A stretch of DNA of 64,000 bases from Agarivorans sp. Toyoura001 (GTDB lineage: Bacteria > Pseudomonadota > Gammaproteobacteria > Enterobacterales > Celerinatantimonadaceae): contig NZ_BJEQ01000008.1 in assembly GCF_005405585.1 (NCBI RefSeq), forward strand, positions 1 through 64,000, read 5' to 3'. The position numbers and the translations under genes were made by a program. The stretch's first letter is position 1. Each line of letters starts with the position of its first letter. This document shows, piece by piece, positions 15,793 to 32,766 of this stretch. The notes beneath the pieces are model-generated. The model was not told where the DNA came from. It did not search any database and was given only the letters and a program-made list of their open reading frames with translations.

Positions 15793-18255
15793 CTACAGCT
15801 TGGTTCTATTCAGCCTCAGCACAGCCAACATCAATAGCAGGCCAAAACCTACACTACCGCCACCACTGTCTGAATCCGGTGTGGGCTCAGGATCAGGAGT
15901 CGGTTCTGGGTCCGGCGTAGGATTTGGGTCCGGCGTAGGGTCTGGGTCCGGCGTAGGGTCTGGGTCCGGCGTTGGGTCTGGATCCGGTGTTGGCGCTGTT
16001 GTTTTATCTTTTATGCTTACCGTTACAGAATCATTAGTGCCTGCAAGGGCATTAATCAGCGTTCCCATGCTAATCACTAGCGTTTCGTCACCTTCAATCA
16101 GCTCGTCTGCTAGTACTCGAAAAGTTAAAGAGCCTTCAGTGCCAGCGTTAATCACTAAGCTACCAGCAACCAAGTTGTGGTCACTGCTATCGGCAGTGCC
16201 GCTCAAGGTATAGGGAATGGTCACTGGGTAAACCCCTGCGTCACTAGACAGCATAACAACAATTGTTACCTGTTGATTCTCTTCAACCTCCAAACTGCTA
16301 ACACTAAAGCTAGCCAGCGGCACTTCTACCGCAGGATTTACACAATCTTCTCCAGGAAGCCCATAACAACCATTACCGGTTGGGCCTAGCTGTCTATCCC
16401 AGGTTATGCCCGCTATCCAGTTTTCGTTATCTCCACCTTTCTCGTAAGCGCCAACATCAGGGTTACCATCGGTAACATCGTCGGTAATACCCGCAATAAC
16501 ACGGCCAGCATCAATAGGGGCAGAGCTGGCTTTTAAGCGAAAATCGCCATTGGCATAATCGACAAAAGGAGATTCGGCCGTGGTTAAGTTGTTCTGCTTG
16601 TCTGATTGCGGTTCCCACGAGTCTTTATCAGACAAGTTGTTCCAAACATTCACATTAGAAAACGCGGTACCGTCTTTATGCCACGCCCCCATAGTGGCAC
16701 TGCCATTCCATAGAGTGTTGTTATAAATGTTTATGTCGGTACCATTCCAATTAATTTGAATATTCGACCACTCGGTATTCCAAATCACATTGTGGTGAAC
16801 CTCAAAACCTTCGGCGTCGTTATCTAAATAGATACCAGCCGCTTTGCTTTTACTACCCGATGAATAAGCATCGTGCAGCCAGTTGTGGTGGATCTCGGTA
16901 TTGCTAGGGCCGCCCACGGTGTAAAAAAGGCCGCAATCATCGGCAATCAAATTACTACGAGAAATGTCGTTAAACGCATATTCAGCATTGTTATTAAAGG
17001 CTTGCATAGCATCTCGGCCACCACGGGTAATGGTGTTTCTTAGTACCTTGGTATTGTTGCCACCACGAGCGTTAATAATCGCGTCGTAATTGCCCAAGTA
17101 GTTAAAATCGTGAATATAAGAATCGAGAATTTGGGTATTTTCACCAGAATCATAAATACCAGTACCAGAGCCAAAGCCAATCTCACTTTTCTCTATCACG
17201 TTGTTTACGCTGTTAAACTGGTTCCAGTCACTACGAATATTAACGCTTTGATTATCTGACGAAAAACCCGACACCACCCCTAGAGTGTAGTTGCCGTACA
17301 AACTGGTCACGCCATAAATATGGTTGTGCGAAGCACCACTAGTAATCTCAATTGAGCCACCAAATACCGCAAGATTTTTAATATGAATATAACTGCGTGC
17401 AGATAAATCGATAGTGGTTTCACGCTTGCGCATTTGCACTTGGTTTTCACTTGGCATCACGCCATCAGGCAGCTGCACATAAAGTTTGTTATTATCGCCA
17501 TCAACATACCATTCGTTTTGATAATCTAATGCTTCTTTAATCCCTTGCAGGAAAAAGTCACCGCCATCGGCAGGGGCATGAAAAGTGCGGATCCAAGTGG
17601 GATTTTTGTCTAGGCTAAAACTCACTTGAGTGGTGGTATTGCTGGTAATAAAGGCGCGCCAAGTTGTCCAGCCAGAGCCCGGTTTATCACCGTAAAAATA
17701 AACAGAGCCCCCCTTCGACCAATCCGCATCGGGGATCCCCGGTGAATAGTCTAAATAAGCATTATCAGCTACCTCAGCGACACTACCACCCGTGTTTCTT
17801 AGCGAGTTTTGAGTAAACGGGTCGCCGTCGATATTGTTCGGCCAGCGCGCTAAATCCATGGCAGTATTGCCTTGCATCACAAAGTTCGATTGGCCTAAAT
17901 CCCAAGCAACATCGGCAACATAAATATTTGCCGAGTCTTCGGTCCAGTTATTTACCGCTTCCATGGCGGTAATGACTACTTTTTCATCTTGATAAGACTG
18001 AAACACAATCGGGTTTGACTCTACCCCTGAATGACTCGGCCGTAACACCTCATGATAAACACCTTCTCGAATGTTCACGGTATCGCCAGCAACCGCTATT
18101 TGCGCAGCTTTAGCCAAGCTTAGAAAAGGCGTAGCAATAGAGCCGTCGGCGGCATCATCGCCGCTTGGCGCAACAAAATAGTCAGCAGCATGAGATAAAT
18201 GTGAAAGCGTGATTAAGGCGATAAATGTCGATATGTGACTTAGCTTAAAGGACAC
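15793..18255 (-). CDS. Secreted right-handed beta-helix protein with Calx-beta and GlyGly-CTERM
   Basis: 820 residues from the GTG at 18255. GGGA eight bases upstream supports this start over the ATG at 18285 (830 residues), which has no ribosome site. Order: signal peptide; YFVAPSGDDAADGSIATPF opening typical of parallel beta-helix polysaccharide-acting proteins; beta-helix to about 610 with NNTKVLRNTITRGG- and NAEYAFNDISRSN-like turns; a Calx-beta domain (about 655-755); a (TPDPDP)n linker; and a C-terminal GGGSVGFGLLLMLAVLRLNR tail, the GlyGly-CTERM signal processed by rhombosortase. The substrate is probably a polysaccharide, but no lyase family can be fixed by eye. Confidence 0.85.
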   Translation of the reverse strand: MSFKLSHISTFIALITLSHLSHAADYFVAPSGDDAADGSIATPFLSLAKAAQIAVAGDTVNIREGVYHEVLRPSHSGVESNPIVFQSYQDEKVVITAMEAVNNWTEDSANIYVADVAWDLGQSNFVMQGNTAMDLARWPNNIDGDPFTQNSLRNTGGSVAEVADNAYLDYSPGIPDADWSKGGSVYFYGDKPGSGWTTWRAFITSNTTTQVSFSLDKNPTWIRTFHAPADGGDFFLQGIKEALDYQNEWYVDGDNNKLYVQLPDGVMPSENQVQMRKRETTIDLSARSYIHIKNLAVFGGSIEITSGASHNHIYGVTSLYGNYTLGVVSGFSSDNQSVNIRSDWNQFNSVNNVIEKSEIGFGSGTGIYDSGENTQILDSYIHDFNYLGNYDAIINARGGNNTKVLRNTITRGGRDAMQAFNNNAEYAFNDISRSNLIADDCGLFYTVGGPSNTEIHHNWLHDAYSSGSKSKAAGIYLDNDAEGFEVHHNVIWNTEWSNIQINWNGTDINIYNNTLWNGSATMGAWHKDGTAFSNVNVWNNLSDKDSWEPQSDKQNNLTTAESPFVDYANGDFRLKASSAPIDAGRVIAGITDDVTDGNPDVGAYEKGGDNENWIAGITWDRQLGPTGNGCYGLPGEDCVNPAVEVPLASFSVSSLEVEENQQVTIVVMLSSDAGVYPVTIPYTLSGTADSSDHNLVAGSLVINAGTEGSLTFRVLADELIEGDETLVISMGTLINALAGTNDSVTVSIKDKTTAPTPDPDPTPDPDPTPDPDPTPDPNPTPDPEPTPDPEPTPDSDSGGGSVGFGLLLMLAVLRLNRTKL
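15873..15990. repeat. 18-bp tandem repeat coding the Thr-Pro-Asp linker
   Basis: About six imperfect copies of an 18-bp unit, GGGTCTGGGTCCGGCGTA on the plus strand. Read on the minus strand they encode TPDPDP or TPDPEP. This is the hinge between the Calx-beta domain and the C-terminal sorting signal of the beta-helix protein. Copy number in such repeats tends to vary between strains. Confidence 0.9.
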
Positions 18256-18579
18256 TGATAGATTCCCGTCTTTATTGTGTTCCATGTTAATTGGCGAAAC
18301 AATATACTAAATGGAATCGACTATCAATTTATTATAAAACAAAGACTTAAATATGATCAGCAACTATTAAGAGTTTAATATTGACGGACAATAGTAACTA
18401 TTCAAAAGTCGCCATACGCTGGCTAGATTTTTAGACATGGCTAAGTAAAGGTTTGATCGGCGAAGGCCGTATTGGAGTTTCCGTATTAGCAACAATGTGG
18501 AGGGTAAAATTACCGCCTTTACAATGGGCAGCAAAATCGAAATTTTTCTGTATAGCCGCAGGCGACACCGATTGGATTG
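18256..18579. other. Gene-poor stretch with attC-like fragment
   Basis: No convincing gene. The right part, read on the minus strand just after the small lipoprotein stop, contains CATAACAATCCAATCGG followed by GTCGCCTGCGGC, resembling the left half of an integron attC site (TAACAA plus a CGCC..CGGC core). No matching right half is evident, so the site would be degenerate. The left part is AT-rich and holds the upstream region of the beta-helix gene. Confidence 0.3.
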
Positions 18580-21265: not shown

Positions 21266-22030
21266 TTATTTCGCTATAACCAGATTAACGCCTTGAGCAC
21301 GAATTTGCTCGGCGATGGCTGGGTCTAACTGATTGTCTGTGACTAAAGTTGAAATTTTGGACCATGCCAACTCTAGATTATGAATTCTGCGGCCAATTTT
21401 ATTGGATTCGGCCAATACCACGACTTCTCTTGCAACTTCTGCCATTACTTGGCTTAAACCCACCAGCTCATTAAAGGTAGTGGAACCACGCGCTACATCA
21501 ATACCATCGGCACCAATAAACAATTGGTCGAAGTCGTAAGCGCGCAATACTTGCTCGGCCACTTGGCCTTGAAACGCCTCTGAATGGGTATCCCACGTGC
21601 CACCGGTCATCAAAAGGGTGGGCTCGTTTTCCAGCTCACGTAAGGCACCTGCGATGCTTAAAGAGTTAGTCATTACCACTAAACCTTCTTTGCCAGAGAG
21701 CTCCGGTAGCAAAGCCGCGGTAGTGCTGCCGCTGTCGATAATAATGCGATTATGGTGGCGTATTAAACCGGCAGCCGATTGCGCAATCGCTTGTTTTTGC
21801 TCTGAAACTTGTTCTTCATCGGGTTCGTTGATCAACTCTTTAGGAATAGGCACAGCCCCGCCATAACGCCTTAGCAACAAGCCATTTGCTTCTAAACTCG
21901 CTAAGTCCTTTCGAACCGTAACTTCTGATGTTTCAAAAGAGTGAGCGAGCTCGTCAACCTTTACTTCACCGAGTTCGGCAAGCTTTTCTAAGATTAAGCG
22001 ACGACGCTGTTGGGTGTTTCGTTTGATCAT
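21266..22030 (-). CDS. DeoR/GlpR-family transcriptional regulator
   Basis: 254 residues. The N-terminal winged helix is typical: [20 protein letters not shown] then [28 protein letters not shown] (about 8-60). A DeoR C-terminal sugar-phosphate sensor domain follows, with [21 protein letters not shown] and FIGADGID. It precedes glmS by 25 bp, so it probably senses an amino-sugar or hexose phosphate and controls glmS and itself. A perfect TTTCG/CGAAA operator overlaps its promoter. Confidence 0.92.
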
Positions 22031-22100: not shown

Positions 22101-22274
22101 TTAATGTTTTGATTTTTCTGCTTGCTTGGTCGGCGGGGCAAATAAAACACGCCAGCGTTGTTTAAACGATAAACCCATTACGTTCACTTCTTTAAGCATT
22201 GTTCGCCACTCTTTAAAGGTCACGACCAGGGGATTAAAGCTATTGATTGGCTGAGTGATGCCGTATTCAACCGC
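22101..22274 (-). pseudogene. Detached C-terminal tail of the sterol-desaturase-like gene
   Basis: Immediately after the TAA stop of the upstream gene (22275-22277), the same frame stays open for 57 codons to a TAA at 22101-22103. It reads AVEYGITQPINSFNPLVVTF, then FKEWRTMLKEVNVMG and LSFKQRWRVLFAPP. This is the usual tail of bacterial sterol-desaturase proteins, in which a (V/K)YGIT..I.(S/T)(F/Y)NP motif follows the FG.FE segment. The tail has no start codon of its own near the front. Either a nonsense mutation cut the gene or the stop is read through. Confidence 0.7.
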
Positions 22275-22970
22275 TTACTGTTCCTTCTCAAAACTGCCAA
22301 ACAATTTATCCCAAATAATAAAAACGCCAGCATAGTTTTTATCAATATATTGCGGGTTGCGCCCATGATGCACCCGATGGTGTGATGGAGTATTAAATAG
22401 CCACTCCAAAGGCCCTAAGCTTTTAATGGCTTGGGTATGCACAAAAAACTGTAAACCTAAATTAAGCAGCACCACAAAAACCACCCATTTAGGATCAAAG
22501 CCAATAATGACCAAAGGCAACCAAAACAGCCACATACCGGCTAAGGGGTACATTAAGCTTTGCCTAAACGCGGTACTAAAATTCATATTCTCGGAACTGT
22601 GGTGTACTACATGCGCAGCCCACATCCAGCGTACTCTATGGCTAGCGCGATGAAACCAGTAGTAGCAAAAGTCTTGAGCCAGTACCAAAGCAACAAAACT
22701 GAATACGTTCATTTCTATTTCAAAGAGTCGCCAAGCAAATAGCATTAAATACAGCTGGCTAATCAACAAACCGGTAAGTAAATCGCTGAGCTGATGCATA
22801 CCGGCTAACACAAAGTTGCACAGCACTTCTGTAGGTTTGTAACGGGCAGACTCCGCCAAGTGCTGGCATCTATCCCCCCAATACCACTCTGCCACCATGC
22901 ATAGAACAAACAGCGGCGCGAGCACCAACAACAAATATTCTGGGTGGCTAATAAGTATAGTAACATCCAC
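22275..22970 (-). CDS. Sterol desaturase/fatty acid hydroxylase family protein, cut by in-frame stop
   Basis: 231 residues before the stop; about 289 if the next 57 codons are added, which fits the family. It is a membrane di-iron hydroxylase type: the histidine boxes HRASH, HVVHH and HHRVHH are all present (about 108, 120 and 198), between four or so hydrophobic helices. Substrates in this family range from sterols to fatty acids and ether lipids; none can be chosen here. It lies 18 bp after the DUF2804 gene, so the two are probably co-transcribed. The catalytic boxes are intact, so the short form might still work. Confidence 0.85.
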   Translation of the reverse strand: MDVTILISHPEYLLLVLAPLFVLCMVAEWYWGDRCQHLAESARYKPTEVLCNFVLAGMHQLSDLLTGLLISQLYLMLFAWRLFEIEMNVFSFVALVLAQDFCYYWFHRASHRVRWMWAAHVVHHSSENMNFSTAFRQSLMYPLAGMWLFWLPLVIIGFDPKWVVFVVLLNLGLQFFVHTQAIKSLGPLEWLFNTPSHHRVHHGRNPQYIDKNYAGVFIIWDKLFGSFEKEQ

Positions 22971-22988: not shown

Positions 22989-24074
22989 CTACCAGCGCGC
23001 AAAATGGTCTTCGCTTAAGCCCAGCACTTTATCTAAGCGATGCTGCTGACCGCATTGATCCACAAGCACTCCACTAAAATGCCCAATGTATTGGCGAAAG
23101 TTACTCTTTAACAACCAAAGATTGAGCCGTTCTTGGCGGCAATTGAGCGGGCTGAAATGTAAATCAATGCGCCCATCTGCTGAGTAGATATGCCAATCTA
23201 TAGGTGCTTGCTCGCTGCCACTGGCTGGCACTCTGGTGAACTCAAAATGAACTGGGCCTAGCAGCTGCTTTTGTCCGTCTATCCACAGTACATTTTCGTT
23301 AAAGCCGGTTTCGTTTACGCCTGCTGCGAGGTTTACTCCCAAACACACATCGTTTAACTGAGCCGATATGCTTGCCCAGCGCCAGCTAGTTTCACGGCGC
23401 ATATACCCAGCCGAGAAATCGTAACCGGCCAGAGCATCATTTAAGTGTTGGGCTTCTCCATTTATGCTTAAATTGCCGCTAACGCACAAGGCATTATGTT
23501 TTTGGGTGTATGTCCAACCGTTATAAGCAGTGGGGCTACACATAGCCATAACTTGATCGGAGTGCTGACACACTAGCTCTAATTCAGCACTTAAAAATGG
23601 CGTTTCTACCGCCAGCTGCCATTGGCCATTTTTGATAGTAATACTGAGAGTGTTTTTGCCATTAATGTAAGCGCGGCTGTTCATGCTACTGGGCTCGGTG
23701 CCATAAGCCAGTCCGTAGGGCTTTAACCAACTCACTTCTTGCAAGGTTTGCTTAGCAATGTTGTACACATAACAAAAGCCACTGCCTAAATAGCGAATGT
23801 CGGCAATCGCAAAACCCAAAATGTAGTGGGCAGTTTTTACGCTAACAAATTGAAATTGCTTGTAGTGAAAATGCTTCGCCCAGGCTGAAGCAGGTTTATC
23901 CATGCTGCTTAAGTATTGGAACTCTGCCAAACCAAGCTGCGCTATTGGCTGATTAAATTGACCATATTGCACCTTACCCGAATCATCAATTAAGCAATGA
24001 GGCGCTGCTTTCGTTTCAATCTCTCTCAAGTTTTCTTTCAACACCGCACGCTCACCATTACAAATCATTAACAT
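22989..24074 (-). CDS. DUF2804 family protein
   Basis: 361 residues. Features of the DUF2804 family include WLKPYGLAYGTEPSS at about 115-130, GYDFSAGYMRRETSWRWAS at about 228-246, and the C-terminal FSPLNCRQERLNLWLLKSNF with FGHFSG-like QYIGHFSGVL. No signal peptide or membrane helix is evident. The fold is thought to be beta-rich, and no activity is established. It shares an apparent operon with the sterol-desaturase-like gene, which suggests a lipid-related role, but this is inference. Confidence 0.8.
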   Translation of the reverse strand: MLMICNGERAVLKENLREIETKAAPHCLIDDSGKVQYGQFNQPIAQLGLAEFQYLSSMDKPASAWAKHFHYKQFQFVSVKTAHYILGFAIADIRYLGSGFCYVYNIAKQTLQEVSWLKPYGLAYGTEPSSMNSRAYINGKNTLSITIKNGQWQLAVETPFLSAELELVCQHSDQVMAMCSPTAYNGWTYTQKHNALCVSGNLSINGEAQHLNDALAGYDFSAGYMRRETSWRWASISAQLNDVCLGVNLAAGVNETGFNENVLWIDGQKQLLGPVHFEFTRVPASGSEQAPIDWHIYSADGRIDLHFSPLNCRQERLNLWLLKSNFRQYIGHFSGVLVDQCGQQHRLDKVLGLSEDHFARW

Positions 24075-24397: not shown

Positions 24398-25750
24398 ATG
24401 AACACAAACAAACCTAAATTACGCTTTTGGCAAATCTGGAACATGAGTTTTGGATTTCTTGGTATTCAATTTGGTTTTGGTTTACAAAATGCCAACGTAA
24501 GCCGAATCTTTGAAACGCTTGGCGCTAGCATCGACCAAATCCCTATTCTTTGGTTAGCCGCTCCTGTTACCGGTTTACTCATTCAGCCAATTATTGGTTA
24601 CATGAGTGACCGCACCTGGAATGGCTTAGGCCGCCGCCGTCCGTATTTCTTAGCAGGCGCGATTATGTCGTCGCTGGCCTTAATCATTATGCCTAACTCA
24701 CCTTACCTGTGGATTGCCGCCGGTATGCTGTGGATTTTAGATGCGTCGATCAACATCTCTATGGAACCATTTCGCGCATTAGTGGCTGATAACCTACCTA
24801 GCGAACAACGTACCCAAGGTTTTGCCGTTCAAACCTTCTTTATTGGTGTAGGTTCGGTTATCGCTTCGGCCATGCCTTACGTGCTAGCCAACTGGTTTGG
24901 CATTGCTAATACAGCGCCAGAAGGGGTTATTCCGCCGTCGGTTAAAATCTCGTTCTACGCTGGTGCCGTAGTGTTTTTTGGTGCTGTTTTGTGGACAGTG
25001 CTAAAAACCAAGGAATACAGCCCAGAAGAAATGGAGCGTTTCGAATCAGCCGAGCCTGAGCAAGAAAGCGGAGATGGTTTTGCCGCGGTATGGGCCGATG
25101 TGAAAAAAATGCCTGCCACCATGCGCCAATTGGCCGTGGTACAGTTTTTCTCATGGTTTGCTTTGTTCGCTATGTGGATTTACACCACCTCAGCAGTAAC
25201 CAGCAGTGTTTATGGCGCAACCGATACTTCTTCAGCCTTATACAATGAAGGTGCAGACTGGGTAGGTTTATGTTTTGCGATGTATAACGGTGTTAGCGCT
25301 TTAGCCGCCTTTGCCTTACCTTGGCTAGCTGCTCGAACTAGCCGTAAAGTCGTTCATGCTTTATGTTTAACGCTGGGCGGTGTAAGCCTTGCTGGCATGT
25401 ACTTCATTAACGATCCTAAAATGCTAATGATTAACATGGTTGGGATTGGTTTTGCTTGGGCGAGTATTTTATGTATGCCATACGCTATTTTAGCCGGTTC
25501 GTTACCGAGCAAAAAAATGGGCTTCTTCATGGGTGTATTTAACTTCTTCATTGTTATCCCACAAATTCTAGCGGCTGGTATATTAGGTTACTTTACCCGT
25601 GAATTCTTTGGTGGCGACTCAATGATGGCCTTAGTACTAGGTGGCGCATCTATGGTGGTAGCCGCGGTTGTTACTTTAGGTGTTACCGACCAAGATGACC
25701 CACAACTTGCCAACGACGACAGTAACGTAAATCAAGCGCAAACCGCTTAG
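24398..25750 (+). CDS. SLC45-like MFS sugar transporter
   Basis: 450 residues with twelve likely membrane helices. The N-terminus (WQIWNMSFGFLGIQFGFGLQ), the SDRTWNGLGRRRPYFL loop after helix 2 (about 69-84) and the EPFRALVADNLP segment after helix 4 mark the SLC45/GPH-like group of proton-coupled sugar transporters, which in Alteromonadales is often linked to maltose or other oligosaccharides. No sugar-enzyme gene is adjacent, so the substrate is open. CRP-like sites upstream and a terminator downstream make it a single-gene unit. Confidence 0.88.
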   Translation: MNTNKPKLRFWQIWNMSFGFLGIQFGFGLQNANVSRIFETLGASIDQIPILWLAAPVTGLLIQPIIGYMSDRTWNGLGRRRPYFLAGAIMSSLALIIMPNSPYLWIAAGMLWILDASINISMEPFRALVADNLPSEQRTQGFAVQTFFIGVGSVIASAMPYVLANWFGIANTAPEGVIPPSVKISFYAGAVVFFGAVLWTVLKTKEYSPEEMERFESAEPEQESGDGFAAVWADVKKMPATMRQLAVVQFFSWFALFAMWIYTTSAVTSSVYGATDTSSALYNEGADWVGLCFAMYNGVSALAAFALPWLAARTSRKVVHALCLTLGGVSLAGMYFINDPKMLMINMVGIGFAWASILCMPYAILAGSLPSKKMGFFMGVFNFFIVIPQILAAGILGYFTREFFGGDSMMALVLGGASMVVAAVVTLGVTDQDDPQLANDDSNVNQAQTA

Positions 25751-31368: not shown

Positions 31369-32304
31369 ATGCCAATTGTTTTTGATTACTTCTTCACGGT
31401 GCAAGTTGCGCTACTGATTTTTGCACTGTTCGTGCTTAAATCCTCGATTAAATTTGTACCTCAAAATGAAGCGTGGGTGATTGAGCGTTTCGGTAAATAT
31501 CAGTCAAGCAAAGAAGCCGGATTAAACTTCCTCATTCCAATGATTGACCAAGTATCAGCTCGTCGCTCGCTAAAAGAGCAAGCTTACGATGTGCCTAGCC
31601 AAGCGGCAATTACTAAAGACAATATTTCATTGTCGGTAGACGGTGTATTGTACTTTCGCGTACTTGACCCATACAAAGCTACTTACGGCGTAGAAGACTA
31701 CGTGTTTGCGGTAACTCAACTAGCACAAACCACCATGCGTTCAGAAATTGGTAAAATTGAGCTGGATAAAACCTTTGAAGAGCGTGATGCGCTTAACGCC
31801 AAAATTGTTACCCAAATTAACGAAGCATCGGCTTCTTGGGGTGTAGCAGTATTACGTTACGAGATTAAAGACATTACGCCACCGGCTTCAATTATGGATT
31901 CAATGGAATCGCAAATGCGCGCCGAGCGTGAACGTCGTGCTAAAATTCTGGAGTCGGAAGGTGAAAAAGCTGCTGCCATTAATATTGCTGAGGGTGAAAA
32001 ACAAGCCCGCGTATTACAAGCAGAAGCAGAAAAACGTGAGCAAGTACTTAGCGCAGAAGGTGAAGCCGAAGCCATTATTGCAGTGGCTAATGCCCAAGCT
32101 AAAGCCATCACTACGGTGGGTGAGTCAGCAGCTACACCTGAAGGCCAAAAGGCGATTCAATTAGATCTTGCCACTAAGGCGATTGAAGCCAAACATGCCA
32201 TTGCTAAAGAATCGAGTGTAGTATTGTTACCGGATAGCAGCACCGAAGCAGGCTCGCTAGTAGCTCAAGCTACCACCATTCTTAATACGCTAAATAGAGG
32301 CTAA
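31369..32304 (+). CDS. qmcA: SPFH/band-7 membrane protease-modulator family protein
   Basis: 311 residues. A single N-terminal membrane helix (about 9-25) is followed by an SPFH domain (FVPQNEAWVIERFGKYQSSK through LRYEIKDITPP, about 30-195) and an Ala/Glu-rich coiled-coil with repeated E.EK.A (about 200-245). It matches QmcA, which organises membrane microdomains and can modulate FtsH. It is co-transcribed with the short NfeD gene, the standard pairing for this family. Confidence 0.93.
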   Translation: MPIVFDYFFTVQVALLIFALFVLKSSIKFVPQNEAWVIERFGKYQSSKEAGLNFLIPMIDQVSARRSLKEQAYDVPSQAAITKDNISLSVDGVLYFRVLDPYKATYGVEDYVFAVTQLAQTTMRSEIGKIELDKTFEERDALNAKIVTQINEASASWGVAVLRYEIKDITPPASIMDSMESQMRAERERRAKILESEGEKAAAINIAEGEKQARVLQAEAEKREQVLSAEGEAEAIIAVANAQAKAITTVGESAATPEGQKAIQLDLATKAIEAKHAIAKESSVVLLPDSSTEAGSLVAQATTILNTLNRG

Positions 32305-32307
32305 ACC

Positions 32308-32766
32308 ATGGCTGAATTGTTTGCCAATCACATTCCGCAAATCTTAATTGCACTGGGCATTGTTCTACTCACTGTTGAAGTAGTGATTATTGGTTTTGCC
32401 ACGTTCATTTTGTTTTTTGTAGGCTTGTCGTTGGTAATCACCGGCTCACTGATTTGGTTAAACATACTGCCCGATACTTGGAATAGCATTTTGCTCGCCA
32501 ATGCAGTGTTAAGCTCGTTGTTAGCAGGCGTATTGTGGAAACCAATGCGCAAGTTACAAAATAGCTCAGACGATAAACAAGTGAGTAGCGATTTTGATGG
32601 TCACCGTTTCTTCTGTCACCAAGAAATTGATAAGCGTGGTTTAAGCACTTACAAACACTCTGGCATTAGCTGGACCTTAAAGAGTGAACACACCATCGCA
32701 GCAGACACCGAAGTAGAAGTAGTGCGCGCAGAAGTGGGCACCTTTTGGGTGAAAACAGTCGACTAA
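32308..32766 (+). CDS. NfeD-like membrane protein partner of QmcA
   Basis: 152 residues. Two or three membrane helices occupy 10-82, then a C-terminal OB-fold of about 60 residues (HRFFCHQEIDKRGLSTYKHSG, ending in VEVVRAEVGTFWVKTVD). This is the short NfeD (YbbK) form, without the N-terminal serine-protease domain. It starts 3 bp after the qmcA stop, so the two form a two-gene operon. Confidence 0.92.
   Translation: MAELFANHIPQILIALGIVLLTVEVVIIGFATFILFFVGLSLVITGSLIWLNILPDTWNSILLANAVLSSLLAGVLWKPMRKLQNSSDDKQVSSDFDGHRFFCHQEIDKRGLSTYKHSGISWTLKSEHTIAADTEVEVVRAEVGTFWVKTVD

Follow-up and report, generated by a model that had tools for sequence, protein, structure and literature searches.

The truncated gene and its locus

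The window, a stretch of 64,000 nucleotides from Agarivorans sp. Toyoura001, contains a gene for a 231-residue protein that an initial annotation had labelled as of the "sterol desaturase family" and had described as cut short by an in-frame TAA ahead of a conserved C-terminus that is still open (Table 1). Its account of the gene holds up. All three histidine boxes lie N-terminal of the stop (HRASH at residues 107-111, HVVHH at 120-124 and HRVHH at 198-202), and PF04116 is matched over profile positions 1-132 of 132, within residues 92-226, at 114.9 bits against a gathering score of 31. Three histidine boxes are the defining motif of the FA_hydroxylase superfamily, whose members use metal as di-iron membrane hydroxylases. 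The histidine columns of the boxes are invariant in 24 aligned sequences, and also across 40 sequences that include 8 paralogues and leave out the window protein. An AAGGAG stretch lies upstream of the GTG start. Past the premature TAA the same frame reads AVEYGITQPINSFNPLVVTF..., includes a YGITQPINSFNP stretch and stays open for 57 codons as far as the TAA at the former gene end, with the coordinates confirmed on the minus strand.

Table 1. Features of the hydroxylase locus, in window coordinates.
Feature	Position	Strand	Remarks
DeoR-family regulator	21266..22030	-	bounds the locus downstream in the genus
TAA, former gene end	22103-22101	-	few codons from the end of intact genus members
severed tail, 57 codons, still open	22104..22274	-	13/13 conserved columns kept
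premature TAA	22277-22275	-	ends the 231-aa frame; sense residue in 83/84 relatives (4 same-genus plus best 80 of 362)
truncated FA_hydroxylase/sterol-desaturase-like ORF	22275..22970	-	GTG start at 22970, 231 aa, complete PF04116
DUF2804 gene	22989..24074	-	open, 361 aa, 18 bases upstream of the hydroxylase ORF
transporter, 450-aa ORF	24398..25750	+	bounds the locus upstream in the genus

Open runs of at least 57 codons past a stop follow 3 of the 39 ORFs of at least 200 aa in the window, the truncated gene included; in the other two cases the DUF2804 gene runs in frame into the hydroxylase gene, and a Band_7 gene runs into its downstream neighbour. Such a run is thus not rare, and it is the homology of the tail, not its openness, that serves as evidence. 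In the last of these cases (window 31369-32763) the ORF that follows the Band_7/SPFH gene in frame has 152 residues, resembles a membrane protein and matches no Pfam family; we take it to be NfeD-like, and the two look like an ordinary neighbour pair rather than a severed gene. Elsewhere in the window, an 830-aa protein (15793-18285) has a beta-helix match, a linker of repeats rich in proline and aspartate, and a C-terminus that is hydrophobic; its PDB matches are all remote, one of them to a xylosidase.

Genome comparisons used six other genomes of the genus (G001-G006, one per species) and a set of 84 relatives, made up of 4 from the genus and the best 80 of 362 stretches that encode a relative in genome contigs. 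In the genus the locus runs deoR, hydroxylase, DUF2804, transporter (the last presumably an MFS transporter), and all four genes are present in G001, G002, G005 and G006. The DUF2804 gene of the window, which the initial annotation had taken to be intact, matches PF10974 over positions 7-339 of 339 (E 1.4e-52) and has an open frame. In 82 of the 84 relatives (4 plus the best 80 of 362) the hydroxylase has a DUF2804 gene as its immediate upstream neighbour in the same orientation, with 10-238 bases between the two matches; L063, one of the two relatives in which none was found upstream, has its start at the boundary of its stretch. DUF2804 and hydroxylase look like a two-gene operon. Our literature search returned no paper combining DUF2804 and sterol desaturase. 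For DUF2804 by itself, the accessible part of a study of GliR, a regulator of glycerolipid genes in Pseudomonas aeruginosa, reports binding sites at the DUF2804 gene PA3342 and lists that gene with a value of 15.38, which we take as a fold change (PMC8151288).

The pair is present in other states elsewhere in the genus. A genome-level search of G003 and G004 recovered remote paralogues only and no hydroxylase orthologue. In G004 (L145 4581-5556) a DUF2804 remnant has lost its last ~40 codons and ends at a TGA at about residue 319-322 of 361; deoR begins some 75 bases beyond it, and a search of this locus stretch at E <= 1 found no piece of the hydroxylase. Since G004 is sister to the intact G002 (95% support in a tree of deoR and transporter), its deletion is a separate and recent one. 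G003 has 405 bases between deoR and transporter and neither DUF2804 nor hydroxylase there; as a separate lineage it may have lost the pair or may never have gained it, so that the clear lesions number two, in the window and in G004, and not three. Widely kept together among relatives and yet partly deleted or absent in some genomes of the genus, the pair thus seems dispensable in this genus.

Conservation across the stop site

An orthologue of the hydroxylase is found in 4 of the 6 other genus genomes at 81-87% identity, and the 57-aa tail, used as sole query, matches the orthologue tail in the same 4 genomes (E 2.2e-19 to 4.2e-22), which bears out the view of the initial annotation that the tail is the conserved C-terminus of the gene. 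That annotation had also proposed aligning the 231+57 residues to homologues, and had held that close relatives ending at the same position would undo its reading. Among the 84 relatives (4 plus the best 80 of 362), 83 cross the site in frame to reach 281-322 aa, none has a stop at the aligned site, and the search for relatives ending there came back empty. At the aligned column these 83 have a sense residue, in most of them an acidic one, and the remaining relative, L040 from Shewanella benthica KT99, has a gap; its frame shifts directly before the site, at about residue 230. This frame change is either a mutation or an old draft error; another S. benthica record, L041, is intact. Outside the genus, 1 of 5 genomes of the wider family has a match at E <= 1e-60, and that genome seems to come from the organism of L083 (Alginatibacterium sediminis), already counted among the 84. 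The window genome itself retains two remote paralogues at 29% identity, which need not share the job of the hydroxylase. As to the other end of the gene, the window gene starts with GTG; of the 84 relatives (4 plus the best 80 of 362), 77 have a match that begins at residue 1, and all 77 start with ATG.

The better of two models of the intact G005 protein, the second, made with AlphaFold (pLDDT 83.3, pTM 0.83, against pLDDT 70.9 for the first), places two helices, 247-262 and 269-277, in the part that the window product lacks; pLDDT in this block is 82-94. Adding 8 paralogues at 23-27% identity to the alignment leaves P241 of the tail invariant and P280 almost invariant, and conservation across such remote proteins suggests that the tail is part of the basic fold. 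A PDB sequence search at E<=0.1 gave no match, and Foldseek with both models gave matches at E above 3 only. Deprived of the last two predicted helices, the 231-aa product is probably unstable or poorly active, to judge from the model. The Pfam match ends at residue 226 in the window protein and before the tail in intact relatives as well; because the domain ends inside the truncated product, as it does in those relatives, activity could survive.

Age of the stop

If the stop were old, the tail might be expected to show it. We counted as conserved those columns that are at least 95% conserved among relatives, which gives 13 of 57 columns in the tail and 133 of 231 in the head. The window keeps all 13 in the tail and 130 of 133 in the head (the exceptions being the start codon and columns 39 and 217), and on this count the head is not decaying. 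As a control we scored intact sequences too, excluding L040 throughout and, each time, the sequence under test: the 4 intact genus members retain 13/13 tail columns and 130-132 of 133-134 head columns, and for L083 the figures are 13/13 and 129/134. Private residue changes, polarised at sites where G001, G002 and G006 agree (51 tail codons), number 3 in the window tail against 4 in the intact tail of G005, and tail identity to G001, G002 and G006 is 67-69% for the window against 65% for G005. A tail that is conserved and in which private changes are no commoner than in the intact one of G005, the nearest relative, points to a young stop. In the head, private changes number 11 in the window against 5 in G005; these are too few to lean on, and we set aside the idea that the window head is changing faster.

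A neutral simulation places a rough bound on the age. The frame and all 13 positions were kept in 2.8% of runs at 0.1 substitutions per site, and in a proportion of 0.005 at 0.15 substitutions per site. Distances to G005 at four-fold sites, with a simple correction, are 0.56 per site for deoR, 1.07 for the transporter and 1.42 for the head of this gene, so the stop should be much younger than the split from G005; pairwise distances span both branches, and the bound is rough for this reason. If the stop is real and the tail untranslated, the sequence comparison suggests that it arose, roughly speaking, late in the lineage, within a short final portion of it.

Alternative explanations

An undecayed tail with no sign of relaxed constraint is also what an intact gene would have, and the TAA could be a wrong base in a 54-contig draft of a genome whose gene is whole, an explanation that is not among the two considered by the initial annotation. 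According to one study, assembly errors lie behind many of the putative pseudogenes in public genomes (PMC11017572). We nevertheless think an error rather unlikely here. The stop site is not in a homopolymer, and the assembly has a completeness of 100 and a contamination of 0.33. Compared with G005 over the window genes that have a match in that G005 stretch, 15 of 16 collinear pairs agree at the C-terminus, the hydroxylase being the sole exception (27 ORF pairs were obtained, of which 8 involving antisense or shadow ORFs and 3 weak ones out of collinear order were discarded). Two large domain families were free of internal stops too, ABC_tran in every match among those listed (97 in G000) and MCPsignal in 34 of 34 matches (G000). 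Clean collinear genes and clean domain families argue against a generally bad assembly; a single wrong base is compatible with them.

Could the 231-aa form instead be a working shortened enzyme, with its histidine boxes present and a dispensable tail? The complete PF04116 match and the conserved head (130/133 columns) are what one would want of such an enzyme, but a conserved head is equally expected of a recent stop. The tail, moreover, is kept in 83 of the 84 relatives (4 plus the best 80 of 362) with 13 near-invariant columns, its two prolines persist among the remote paralogues, and it is predicted with good confidence to form two helices, so that we hold a functional short form to be quite improbable.

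The second option of the initial annotation, that read-through of the stop yields a short and a long membrane form, fares worse still, and we give programmed or regulated read-through hardly any credence. An open, conserved and undecayed tail would suit it, and the base after the stop is G, which in E. coli went with less accurate termination when downstream of a stop (PMC11126739, whose accessible text does not make the exact position visible). Against this, the stop is found in none of the 84 relatives (4 plus the best 80 of 362), and it is a TAA, which in the accessible part of the same study was the least read through in E. coli reporters at all temperatures tested, with TAA means of 0.01-0.05%. 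Of 285 tRNA candidates 150 were scored, and at the 58 tRNA matches no stop anticodon was seen; the list also lacks Glu, Ile and Ala-UGC tRNAs, and the census is accordingly incomplete. Read-through thus drew no positive support. A bolder version, in which the whole species carries the TAA and some ribosomes pass it, selection keeps the tail undecayed and short and long hydroxylases are both made by a lineage-specific recoding that lacks a known signal, strikes us as similarly far-fetched. A split gene with the tail translated alone looks unlikely from the sequence: a start at an in-frame GTG inside the conserved stretch, or at a later ATG, would omit the YGITQP part.

Discussion

We regard it as likely that a nonsense mutation has recently arisen, in the window, in a gene that encodes an FA_hydroxylase-type membrane hydroxylase and sits behind DUF2804, in a pair that the genus can do without. 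The fresh nonsense mutation put forward by the initial annotation is supported by the stop being found in 0 of 84 relatives (4 plus the best 80 of 362), by a tail that has not decayed and by a locus partly deleted in another species; intact orthologues, expected of a recent nonsense pseudogene, are on hand in 83 of those 84. Translation would now end at the TAA and yield a 231-aa protein that retains the three histidine boxes, lacks the last two predicted helices and is probably unstable or poorly active. The pair seems dispensable in the genus and may be on its way out in the window lineage. Ordinary gene loss, with a new step just taken, is the most probable account, ahead of deliberate read-through.

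As a case, one more recent gene truncation is ordinary. Within the genus, however, the condition of the pair varies: 4 genomes have it intact, one stop cuts it here, most of it is deleted in G004 and G003 lacks it, and such a series is handy for asking what role the uncharacterised and widely paired DUF2804 and hydroxylase genes play.

Turning to known systems, NCBIfam gave the window protein a single match, to OlsE, an ornithine lipid hydroxylase (NF052566), and three intact orthologues likewise matched this family and no other; at 59.8 bits for the window protein and 64-70 bits for the orthologues, against an equivalog cut-off of 475, the scores fall far short and we reject this identity. 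The window protein resembles the FA_hydroxylase superfamily (PF04116) in its complete domain, which clears the threshold of 31 bits over its whole length, and in its three histidine boxes, and differs in that it stops 57 codons early. Bacterial pseudogenes with one internal stop are a known kind, and the window gene is like the recent ones among them: it has a single in-frame lesion in an otherwise conserved frame, intact orthologues in sister species and a locus partly deleted elsewhere in the genus, and nothing in it sets it apart from them.
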